Source: Natronoarchaeum mannanilyticum
Lineage (GTDB): Archaea > Halobacteriota > Halobacteria > Halobacteriales > Natronoarchaeaceae
NCBI RefSeq assembly: GCF_039522665.1
Contig: NZ_BAAADV010000001.1
Span: 620,001-684,000 of the forward strand
Length of the DNA: 64,000 nucleotides
Reading direction: 5' to 3'
Numbering within the stretch: position 1 is the stretch's first letter; the number at the start of each line of letters is the position of its first letter. The notes below the pieces were generated by a model. That model was not told the origin of the DNA. It worked only from the letters and a program-made list of their open reading frames with translations, and ran no database searches. Made by a program: the position numbers and the translations under genes. Positions 4,580-26,634 of this stretch are shown one piece after another.

Positions 4580-6031
4580 ATGAGCGAGCAAGAACTCGGC
4601 ATCACGGAGAGCAAGGAGTACGCGACGGGCGACTGGTACGCGGAGGTCGTACAGAAGGCGGGGCTGGCAGATTACGCGCCGATGGGCGGCTTCATCGTCA
4701 CTAAACCCCGGGGGTACGCCCTCTGGGAGGCGCTGCAGGACAACCTCGACGGCTGGTTCAAGGACACCGGCGTCGACAACGCCTACTTCCCGATGTTCAT
4801 CCCCGAGAGCTTCCTCGAACGGGAGAAAGACATCGTCGAAGGGTTCGACCCCGAGGTGGCGTGGGTGACGCAGGGCGGCCACGAGGAACTCGAAGAACGT
4901 CTCGCGGTCCGCCCGACCAGCGAGAGCATCATCGCACCGTTCATGGCCGACTGGGTGCGCAGCCACCGCGACCTGCCCCTGCGGCTCAACCAGTGGTGCA
5001 GCGTCGTCCGGTGGGAGGCCACCGAGACGAAGCCGTTCTTCCGCACCAAGGAGTTCCTCTGGCAGGAGGGCCACACCGCCCACGCCAGCGAGGACGGGGC
5101 CTGGGACGAAACGATGCTCCGGCTCGACCAGTACGAACGCCTATTTGAAGACGTGCTGGCGATCCCGGTCATGCGCGGCCGGAAGCCGCCCCACGACAAG
5201 TTCCCCGGCGCCCACACGACGACGACCGTCGAGGCGCTGATGCCCGACGGCAAGTCGGTCCAGAGCGCGACCAGCCACTACCTCGGGACGAGCTTCGCCG
5301 AGGCGTTCGACATCACCTACACCGACGAAGACGAGGACGAGGCGGTCGCCCACACCACCTCGTGGGGCCTGTCCTGGCGCGCGCTCGGCGCGCTGATCAT
5401 GACCCACAGCGACGAGCAGGGGCTCGTCGTTCCCCCGACCGTGGCGCCCACGCAGGTCGCGATCGTCCCGATCTGGCAGGAAGACACCAAAGACGAGGTC
5501 CTAGAGTACGCCGAGGGGATCGCCGAGGAGCTCGAAGACGCCGGCATCAGCGTCGACCTCGACGACCGCGACGAGCGCAACCCCGGGTTCAAATTCAACG
5601 AGCACGAGCTCAACGGCGTCCCGGTGCGCTTCGAGATCGGCCCCAACGAGGTCGAGGACGAGGAGATCACGGTCGTCCACCGCCCCGACGGCGAGTCGAT
5701 CGTCGAGGACCGCGAGGAGATCGCGGAGACGGTCGAGGATCACTTCGACGACGTGTACGACAAGCTCTACGAGGCCGCCGAAGAGAACCTCGAAGAGAAC
5801 GTGCGCGAGGCCGACAGCGCCGAGGAGATCCTCGGGACGATCGGCCAGCACCGCGGCTACGTCAAGGCGCCGTGGTGCGGCGACGAGGCCTGCGAGACCG
5901 CGATCAAGGAGAAGATCGCCGCCGAGATCGTGATGTGTCCGCTCGATCGGGACGTCGAGCCCGAGAGCGACGAGTGCGCTATCTGTGGGGACGAAGCCCA
6001 CGAAGTGGCGTACTTCGCGAAGTCGTACTGA
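4580..6031 (+). CDS. proS: Proline--tRNA ligase
   Basis: This class II aminoacyl-tRNA synthetase (483 aa) charges tRNA-Pro in the cytoplasm. Class II motifs are visible: the VRPTSESIIAP stretch, motif 2 around RWEATETKPFFRTKEFLWQE, and a C-terminal anticodon-binding domain from about residue 290 (VAIVPIWQ). The short C-terminal zinc-type tail typical of archaeal/eukaryotic ProRS has cysteines in APWCGDEAC, MCPLDR and CAICGDE, ending FAKSY. Length is normal. The last 18 codons and stop are repeated about 195 bases downstream (see 6170-6226). Confidence 0.96.
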   Translation: MSEQELGITESKEYATGDWYAEVVQKAGLADYAPMGGFIVTKPRGYALWEALQDNLDGWFKDTGVDNAYFPMFIPESFLEREKDIVEGFDPEVAWVTQGGHEELEERLAVRPTSESIIAPFMADWVRSHRDLPLRLNQWCSVVRWEATETKPFFRTKEFLWQEGHTAHASEDGAWDETMLRLDQYERLFEDVLAIPVMRGRKPPHDKFPGAHTTTTVEALMPDGKSVQSATSHYLGTSFAEAFDITYTDEDEDEAVAHTTSWGLSWRALGALIMTHSDEQGLVVPPTVAPTQVAIVPIWQEDTKDEVLEYAEGIAEELEDAGISVDLDDRDERNPGFKFNEHELNGVPVRFEIGPNEVEDEEITVVHRPDGESIVEDREEIAETVEDHFDDVYDKLYEAAEENLEENVREADSAEEILGTIGQHRGYVKAPWCGDEACETAIKEKIAAEIVMCPLDRDVEPESDECAICGDEAHEVAYFAKSY

Positions 6032-6169
6032 GCGTACTGCGCGAGCGAAGTGAGCGCGGTTTCGCCGAGTGTGAGCGGAGCGAGCACTCGGTCGTTTTCA
6101 TCGACGTTTTGCGAGGAGTGGTGTGCGAGCGGCGAGAGCCGCGAGCACACCCGACGAAGTAAAAGGTCG
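6032..6169. repeat. Hairpin-rich insert between the two copies of the proS 3' end
   Basis: About 138 bases separate the proS stop from its duplicated 3' end. It contains nested hairpins: CCGAGTG/CACTCGG around a GAGCGGAGCGAG loop (about 6065-6091) and GTGTGC/GCACAC around GCGGC/GCCGC (about 6121-6150). A TTTTGCGAGG block lies at 6107-6116 and AAAAGGT at 6161-6167. Both blocks recur in the insert after the thiolase gene at 57.6 kb. There is no open reading frame and no integrase. I infer a small mobile or recombinogenic element. Confidence 0.65.
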
Positions 6170-6226
6170 TGTGCGATCTGCGGCGACGGTGCCCACGAGG
6201 TCGCGTACTTCGCGAAGTCGTACTGA
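6170..6226 (+). pseudogene. Duplicated 3' end of proS (18 codons plus stop)
   Basis: Read in frame, this stretch encodes CAICGDGAHEVAYFAKSY and a TGA stop. That matches the proS C-terminus (CAICGDEAHEVAYFAKSY at 5975-6031) with a single residue change. At DNA level there are several differences, mostly at third codon positions (for example TGT/TGC, GGG/GGC, GAA/GAG, GTG/GTC). That pattern indicates the two copies diverged under protein-level selection, so one copy probably came from a homologous gene in another lineage. It has no start codon and is not a gene. Confidence 0.85.
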
Positions 6227-6239
6227 CTGCGAAGTTCTC

Positions 6240-7103
6240 TTACTTTTCGACGGCTTCCGCAGGATCGACAACGGCACCCGATTCCGCGTCGACGCCGACC
6301 CGATCGCACAGATCCGCCATCGGACACTCCTCTCCCCCGTCGAGACACGCGGGCTTGCGCGCCGAGCAGTACTCGCGCCCGAACTGGATGCTCGCGGTGT
6401 GGCCGAACCCGCACTTCTCGGGCGGGACGTCGCGCTCCAGCGCCGCCCGAACGCCCTCGTGGTCGGCATCCGGCGGCGCGACGCCGATGCGGCGGTAGAT
6501 CCGGTGGACGTGAGTGTCCACAGGAAATACCCCCTCGCGCCCGCCCGCGAACAGTAACACGCAGTCGGCGGTCTTCGGACCGACGCCGCCGAAATCGAGC
6601 AGCGCGTCGCGGACGTTCGAAGGGTCCTCTTCCCGGACGAAGGCGTCGAACGCCGCCGTCGAGCCGTACTCGTCGAGCACGCGCTCGGACACGGTCTGGA
6701 TCACCTCCGATTTCCGGTTGTACAGTCCCGCCGGCCGGATCGTCTCGGCGAGCTCCTCGCGGTCGGCCGCCGCGAGCGCCGCGGCGAGGTCGGCGTCCGG
6801 CGTCGGCTCGGCGGAGTCGGCGTCTGACGTCGCTGCTTCGTCATCGTCGGGCGCGTACCGCTCCATCAGCGCGTCGTGAGCGGGCTGGCTCGCCACGTCG
6901 CTGGTGTTCTGGCTCAGGATCGTCCGGACGAGACACTCGAATGCGTCCCGGCCGCCGTAGGCTTTCTGCCAGTACAGTTCGCCGAGCCGGTCGACGACGG
7001 CCTCCGCACGAGTTTCCGCATCGGCCGGCTCGAACGTTGCTGTCGTACCCCCGCCGGCCGCGCCGCCGCTGATGTTCTCGGCGGGCTCGGGATCGTCTAC
7101 CAT
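6240..7103 (-). CDS. nth: Endonuclease III (bifunctional DNA glycosylase/AP lyase)
   Basis: This base-excision repair enzyme removes oxidised pyrimidines. It has the helix-hairpin-helix LLDFGGVGPKTADCVLL with the catalytic Lys in GPKTAD. The catalytic Asp is in VDTHVHR. A C-terminal four-cysteine iron-sulphur loop (spacing C-x6-C-x6-C-x5-C) runs from CSARKPAC to CPMADLC. An acidic, low-complexity insert near the middle (DDDEAATSDADSAEPTPDAD) is typical haloarchaeal padding. I chose the ATG at 7103 (287 aa). The longer frame to 7208 would run through the aIF5A promoter. It converges on the proS duplicate. Confidence 0.93.
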   Translation of the reverse strand: MVDDPEPAENISGGAAGGGTTATFEPADAETRAEAVVDRLGELYWQKAYGGRDAFECLVRTILSQNTSDVASQPAHDALMERYAPDDDEAATSDADSAEPTPDADLAAALAAADREELAETIRPAGLYNRKSEVIQTVSERVLDEYGSTAAFDAFVREEDPSNVRDALLDFGGVGPKTADCVLLFAGGREGVFPVDTHVHRIYRRIGVAPPDADHEGVRAALERDVPPEKCGFGHTASIQFGREYCSARKPACLDGGEECPMADLCDRVGVDAESGAVVDPAEAVEK

Positions 7104-7210
7104 GCGCGGGCGTTGGTCCGACAGCCACTTGAGGGCCCCGCTCAGCGATCGGCCCGGACGGCCAGAATCGGCCGTAGCTGTCCGGAATTCGACGCTCCGC
7201 GTTTCCAAAC

Positions 7211-26234: not shown

Positions 26235-26308
26235 GGGTTCGTAGTCTAGCTGGTTATGACGTGGCCTTTACAAGGCCGAGATCGGCGGTTCGAACCCGCC
26301 CGAACCCA
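26235..26308 (+). tRNA. tRNA-Val, anticodon TAC
   Basis: The cloverleaf folds fully. The acceptor GGGTTCG pairs with CGAACCC. The anticodon stem TGGCC/GGCCG encloses loop TTTACAA (anticodon TAC). The T stem GGCGG/CCGCC encloses TTCGAAC. The discriminator base is A and CCA is not encoded. The total is 74 bases with no intron. The last 22 bases are repeated exactly at 26419-26440. Confidence 0.97.
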
Positions 26309-26418
26309 TAGATTTTGACTGCGAACGAACGTGAGCAGTCAAATCTTTGACCGAGGGCGCGGTTCGAACCAGGGAGCGGGAGGTGAGCGAGCGCCAGCGA
26401 GCGAACGGGAGCGACCGA
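26309..26418. repeat. Hairpin-rich insert between tRNA-Val and its duplicated 3' end
   Basis: These 110 bases hold a hairpin made of GATTTTGACTGC (26311-26322) and GCAGTCAAATC (26334-26344), then GAGCG-rich repeats (GGTGAGCGAGCGCCAGCGAG). A degraded tRNA-like fragment GCGCGGTTCGAACC lies near 26350-26364. There is no gene. It is comparable in size and style to the inserts after proS and the thiolase, though it lacks their shared blocks at the same positions. Confidence 0.6.
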
Positions 26419-26440
26419 GGTTCGAACCCGCCCGAACCCA
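26419..26440 (+). repeat. Exact copy of the tRNA-Val 3' end
   Basis: These 22 bases are identical to 26287-26308, covering the T-loop, the 3' half of the T stem, the acceptor 3' strand and the discriminator base. This is what an attachment-site repeat left by tRNA-targeted integration looks like. No integrase or cargo is present, so it would be a scar or a very small element. Confidence 0.8.
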
Positions 26441-26634
26441 TCATTTTGCGACGGTCACGCGAACGGAGTGAGCGTGACATCGTGACGAACGGAGTGAGTC
26501 ACGGCAAACGGACGTGAGAAATCAAATCTCTGACTCGAGGTACGGGGCGAATCAGGCCTCACGTCGTCCGGGCCACCGACCCGACGCCTGCCGCGTACAC
26601 AACAACTTTGCCGCGCCGGACGCCGAGTTCGAGC
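26441..26634. other. Intergenic region with further GAACGGAGTGAG hairpins
   Basis: After the tRNA copy come two hairpins: GTCACGC/GCGTGAC with loop GAACGGAGTGA (about 26454-26481) and CGTGAC/GTCACG with loop GAACGGAGTGA (about 26479-26503). A TTTTGCGACGG block at 26444-26454 resembles TTTTGCGAGG in the proS and thiolase inserts. The remainder up to the PHP gene has no feature I can support. Confidence 0.5.

Follow-up and report, generated by a model that had tools for sequence, protein, structure and literature searches.

The window analyzed here is a 64,000-nucleotide stretch of the Natronoarchaeum mannanilyticum genome (contig NZ_BAAADV010000001.1), and coordinates are counted from its first base. 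The features at its proS locus are collected in Table 1; the gene convergent with proS is one that we take, from our own reading of its protein, to be nth-like. A 58-nt direct repeat (5974-6031 and 6169-6226, 195 nt apart) is 86% identical without gaps and covers the end of proS. In the proS frame, the upstream copy, E1, reads CAICGDEAHEVAYFAKSY and the downstream copy, E2, reads CAICGDGAHEVAYFAKSY, each followed by a stop, with a single amino acid change of E to G (GAA/GGT). The repeat and the translations agree with the original prediction that the last 18 proS codons and the stop recur at 6170-6226 with one amino acid change, and its statement that the copies differ mainly at third codon positions is likewise borne out: of 8 nucleotide differences, 7 fall at third positions and 1 at a second position (p = 0.0026 for 7 of 8 against one-third). 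The same prediction took this synonymous pattern as an argument against a simple recent duplication. For a single pair the pattern is suggestive and not decisive, since the bias could also come from an old duplication whose upstream copy alone had evolved under selection; it is the pooled pairs from the wider family, described below, that make the point.

Table 1. Features at the 3' end of proS, in window coordinates
Feature	Position	Strand	Basis or remark
proS, prolyl-tRNA synthetase, 483 aa	4580..6031	+	Full-length match in all close relatives; ends in the upstream 3'-end copy
Putative inserted unit of 195 bp: replacement 3' end, terminator hairpins and hairpin X	5975..6169	+	Absent from congener G001; length equals the copy spacing
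E1, working upstream copy, last 18 proS codons and stop	5975..6031	+	Repeat and codon comparison
T, post-stop stretch with two hairpins (6036-6060, 6063-6094) and a T-run	6032..6101	+	Folding energy; comparable T at other proS genes
X, terminal hairpin CGACGTTTTGCGAGGAGTGG..ACCCGACGAAGTAAAAGGTCG, conserved family end	6102..6169	+	Recurrence, covariation, stem retention
E2, displaced downstream copy of the proS 3' end	6170..6226	+	Followed by sequence collinear with the congener's post-stop DNA
Endonuclease III gene, presumably nth-like, convergent, native right flank	6240..7208	-	Collinear with the congener

An empty site, of the kind that the original prediction would expect in a relative, is present in G001, the sole congener genome compared: its proS stop directly joins the nth-side sequence that is found after E2 in the window. 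The two species are 96% identical in the ProS protein, and the nth-side flank is 86% identical across 497 nt. Because this alignment to G001 runs from the first base past E2, the window has gained the 195 bp, with E2 continuous with the native flank. The 3' end of G001 differs from E1 at 6 of 57 positions and from E2 at 7 of 57, and E1 and E2 differ at 8 by the same count. The distance between the copies is that between two species of the genus, and the relative's 3' end is identical to neither, so that the result that would have refuted a foreign origin, a relative whose 3' end is the same as both copies, was not obtained. Third-position identity of proS to G001 stays at ∼80% along the gene with no clear step, and because of this steadiness we cannot say whether E1 or E2 is the foreign copy at proS; both are of the window genus's type.

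Among the ∼110 proS loci that were checked, a long copy of the 3' end is present in the window species only. Further proS cases are found in another genus, belonging to a second family: G298, G093 with intact extra copies, and G145 with a decayed copy. No copy is seen in G077 of that family and no insert in G163, G281, or G331. A T resembling that of the window lies at proS in G298, G145, and G093. The proS-linked T-X stretches of G000 and G298 are near-best partners across families at ∼74% identity, a kinship that is suggestive only, because GC-rich hairpins resemble one another. We also note a Salinarchaeum MAG (L024, L073) in which the final 24 nt of proS recur behind the gene as about four altered copies in tandem.

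The DNA between the two copies is structured, with a minimum free energy for 6032-6170 of -35.9 compared with a shuffled mean of -27.2 (z = -3.2). The demonstrably conserved part is the right end of X, which consists of TTTTTCGAGGAGTGGT, then a variable hairpin, then ACCCGACGANNAAAAAGGTSG. In the outer stem, the second base pair is C-G at 64 sites, G-C at 27, and broken at 2, and is therefore covarying in 91/93. The inner stem keeps at least 4 pairs in 57 of 79 sequences versus 5% of shuffles, and its first six bases occur in 33 different versions. On these comparisons, which are of sequence alone, X is maintained as a hairpin, and the hairpin base is the junction to E2; the right end of the unit is always at the X base, GGTSG. 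An Rfam search with six X-bearing loci returned no credible match. In G191, X (L175/L176, G231/G191) has a ∼58-nt nested hairpin in its left arm, and this left arm, GAGCAGAGAGTGG, is shared with several other sites. At spt5 of G316 (L296), the X end beside the displaced spt5 end is reversed (CCACTCCTCGAAAAACGTG), as if X can flip. In one genus of the family to which the window species belongs, and also in a different family, X often lies directly against a convergent gene's stop, and we infer that between convergent genes it may serve as a two-way terminator.

These features are not confined to one genome. When the DNA between the two copies was used as a query, all eight members of the family yielded related stretches, several of them also flanked by a duplicated gene 3' end, and the right-end pattern CCGACGAN{1,5}AAAAGGTSG is dispersed across the class, in 158 of 391 haloarchaeal genomes; the reversed control pattern has two occurrences in all. 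We read 117 distinct X sites together with 233 control positions 700 bp away, scoring a duplication when a copy of upstream DNA was found no more than 20 nt right of X. Duplication is observed at 54 of the 117 X sites versus 3 of the 233 controls (Fisher p = 9e-27). The same gene is occupied in several species and genus-mates share history, and the sites are therefore not all independent events. The duplicated copies are 24 to >200 nt long and 74-100% identical, and most are 3' ends of long reading frames with the stop included; from the protein ends, we take them to include ProS, IleS, Spt5, NuoI, and ETF alpha. Arrays of the form E-X-E-X-E exist. The E1-to-E2 offset is ∼130-410 bp at nearly all sites, which leaves no room for a gene, and no motif is common to the E1/E2 start, the insertion point, across sites.

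No duplication was found at the remaining 63 of 117 X sites. Erosion of E2 over time is a likely cause for part of them, because the proS genes of the second family grade from an intact copy (G093) through a decayed one (G145) to none (G077); erosion is seen only at G145 proS and is assumed for the rest.

Several neighboring observations concern related architectures. No duplication accompanies the X copy at G000:C1:612288 (L032/L127), whose right end adjoins a convergent tRNA gene at the 3' end of that gene. The ileS 3' ends of G177, G086, G137, and G133 (L247-L250) carry another short repeat, CAGGCGAGCGGCGACTAAGAGGAGCCGCGAGCC, which cuts the gene short, and beyond this repeat lies a displaced end reading VAAAEASD and a stop; from these cases, hairpin families other than X may act likewise. 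In the window itself, the end of a tRNA-Val gene (26235-26308) recurs exactly, with the 23 nt at 26287-26309 found again at 26419-26441, 132 bp downstream, and hairpin-rich DNA in between. This is the same architecture as at proS but without a recognizable X. At G003:C1:2623318 (L125), a tRNA 3' end is followed by repeated self-copies separated by hairpins.

Pooling the pairs addresses what the single proS pair could not. Across 51 distinct pairs and 988 codons, the differences at codon positions 1/2/3 number 31/33/195, so that 195 of 259 are at third positions, and the changed codons comprise 170 synonymous and 63 nonsynonymous cases. The third-position share of 75% gives p = 7e-17 against one-half, with the caveat that sites within a genus share history. 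Had E2 drifted as junk after a local duplication, this share should be well below 75%, and E1 and E2 thus both appear to have evolved as gene ends. Several pairs are 98-100% identical, some including the terminator (L157, L200, L215, L129), and because some are 100% identical a foreign donor is not needed for every insertion.

Which of the two ends is the newcomer can be decided at ileS, which we compared in 32 genomes of one genus. E1 of G231 and E1 of G191 are 99% identical at third positions, versus 83% in the gene body and 69% for E2 against E2. These E1 sequences are 70-78% identical to most congeners, reaching 87-89% only with G209 and G089, whereas E2 of both genomes is closer to most congeners than E1 is, at up to 94%. 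Ahead of the tract that they share, G231 and G191 last differ at codon 211, and the start of E2 lies at codon 224; the foreign tract thus begins within codons 212-224, ∼12 codons or less from the start of the displaced end. Because E1 is common to two species at 99% of third positions versus 83% in the rest of the gene, the comparison demonstrates, as far as sequence relationships can, that at ileS the working upstream copy is foreign and the downstream copy native. The DHH-family gene of G163 can be set against that of sister species G298, which is 86% identical to E2 (third positions, 66%), 82% to E1 (third positions, 52%), and 96% in the body. At spt5, the post-stop DNA of empty relatives is homologous to the sequence after E2 in occupied genomes, and in G146 the E2 stop codon matches the empty relatives. 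In all three genes, then, relatives indicate that the downstream copy is the native one. Where it can be tested, the working upstream end arrived with T-X, and the downstream end is the old one. The claim that one copy is of foreign origin accordingly stands for ileS, where the upstream copy came with the hairpin DNA, and is left unresolved for proS. The broader suggestion, that the insert enters at gene 3' ends carrying a replacement end, is supported by the empty G001 site, by X at many duplicated gene ends, and by the foreign ileS E1; it holds beyond proS and is not unique to it.

Taken together, we think it probable that a 195-bp insertion from a class-wide family left the duplicated proS end as its footprint, with the left side joined through homology and the right side set by X. 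The unit (E1 + T + X) would have inserted within the proS coding region, 57 bp ahead of the stop, with E1 restoring the reading frame and the previous end, E2, being pushed to the right of X, where it would be unused. The same process may have operated at ileS, spt5, nuoI, the ETF alpha gene, and others. On the left, E1 would recombine homologously with the resident gene when DNA is exchanged with related strains or species, and cell fusion is one way in which haloarchaea can make such exchanges. On the right, an illegitimate join would take place at the X base, with the hairpin defining the end of the incoming strand. Both the homologous left joint and the hairpin-defined illegitimate right joint are inferred. 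The observed left side of the unit is seamless, the X-E2 joint carries 0-7 nt of mismatch or filler, and microhomology at this joint is not apparent. At several loci, the GGTSG is followed by a few gene bases, often by one extra base (commonly C), and then by the continuation of E2; the extra base may be a trace of the joining process.

X might perhaps be cut in trans by a single-strand transposase (HUH, IS200/IS605-type). A Y1 transposase is present in 16 of 17 X-bearing genomes versus 6 of 12 X-poor genomes (p = 0.01), an association that is small, confounded by phylogeny, and no more than a weak hint. X was found near only 1 of 14 Y1 transposase loci, and for this reason it is not the usual end of Y1 transposons; where X does lie near a Y1 gene, in G289, the repeat search found no flanking duplication.

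The alternative that survives best, though we consider it unlikely, is that X, alone or together with T, is a small transposable repeat of the ordinary kind whose target-site duplications, made at gene 3' ends, are very long. E1 and E2 would then be the same at birth, and replacement of the gene, E1 included, by interspecies recombination would later have left E2 as a fossil. The nearly identical pairs, some with the terminator, fit this proposal, as do the E-X-E-X-E arrays and the fact that recombination between haloarchaeal species occurs. The duplication length, however, varies from 24 to >200 nt, a range unlike any transposase stagger known to us. Moreover, gene replacement should include the gene body, whereas the foreign tract shared at ileS comprises E1-T-X only and the bodies of G231 and G191 have diverged.

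A second alternative, less credible still, is that the unit depends as a satellite on an integrative element, with a tyrosine recombinase acting in trans to integrate a tiny circle that has a gene 3' end in its attP. The precedent is e14 (or phage 21) at icd of Escherichia coli, where the prophage supplies a new 3' end and the displaced end is left as a 163-bp pseudo-icd fragment (PMC6379469); Hill 1989 and Wang 1997 on icd are cited there and in PMC12803456. The footprint is the same, since with such an element the gene regains its end from the incoming DNA and the displaced end, which differs mostly at synonymous sites, comes to lie downstream, and the haloarchaeal unit likewise restores a 3' end and leaves the old one at its far side. 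However, e14, a prophage, has an integrase and a single target, whereas the haloarchaeal unit is ∼130-400 bp, gene-less, ends in a conserved hairpin, and occupies many unrelated genes. Circles of that size have no room for an integrase gene between the copies, and the targets share no crossover core at the insertion point. No viral contig carrying X was found: a scan for the X pattern gave 7 matches, all by chance, with no T-X structure or duplication and mostly inside reading frames.

If the proS end had simply been duplicated locally in tandem and had then drifted, the direct orientation of E1 and E2 and their 195-bp spacing would be accounted for, and 7 of 8 changes at third positions are possible if mostly the upstream copy changed. 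This reading leaves unexplained the presence of X at the same place in 54 sites, the pooled third-position bias, and the foreign ileS E1, and we regard it as very improbable. Retro-insertion, in which a reverse transcriptase copies an mRNA end from the X base and the cDNA is installed in the gene, matches the precise X end and variable left end of a 3'-anchored, 5'-truncated event, but it needs a foreign mRNA for a foreign E1 and, barring an unrecognized reverse transcriptase, is largely refuted by the absence of RVT_1 (PF00078) domains from all 29 genomes searched, 17 of them with X, in a search that did give matches in control genomes, so that we give it almost no credence.

The reading that we favor, insertion of a unit with one homologous and one hairpin-defined joint, resembles several known systems in part. 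The PATEs, MITEs, and small mobile repeats of Haloquadratum walsbyi are, like X units, short, gene-less, palindrome-bearing, and dispersed, and PATEs make no target duplications and are tied to IS605 ends (PMC3119063). The nested second hairpin inside X resembles the small mobile repeats inside PATE palindromes. Unlike PATEs, X units carry gene 3' ends, show long duplications at 54 of 117 sites, and are rarely near Y1 genes. In homology-facilitated illegitimate recombination, one side is homologous, the other is joined illegitimately, and foreign DNA is added (PMC6819513). The X unit shares this pair of joints, but its right end is fixed at the hairpin base, whereas the joint in that process is arbitrary with 3-12 nt of microhomology. 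The deletion-coupled insertions of Haloquadratum place foreign DNA at exact positions by an undescribed mechanism, with sequence being replaced (PMC3119063). Foreign DNA is placed just as exactly by X-unit insertion, in which, by contrast, nothing is lost and the old gene end remains. We found no published description of X units beyond the accounts of PATEs, small mobile repeats, and deletion-coupled insertions, and we propose them as a new category only provisionally, because the literature searched lacked most subscription journals.

X may be a selfish element or a by-product of repair. We hold evenly balanced confidence in the more general proposal that these are class-wide, gene-less mobile units with interchangeable 3' ends, whose conserved hairpin end can be joined to almost any conserved gene, which spread across species by gene homology and replace the C-terminal coding end without breaking it. 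If this is true, short noncoding DNA has a harmless way into conserved and often essential genes (ileS, proS, spt5), because it brings the missing end along. It would also point to a process, as yet unknown, by which an end set by homology is joined to an end set by a hairpin. Past interspecies exchange would be readable in single genomes, as a working foreign end beside a displaced native end, and gene exchange among haloarchaea would become directly countable.
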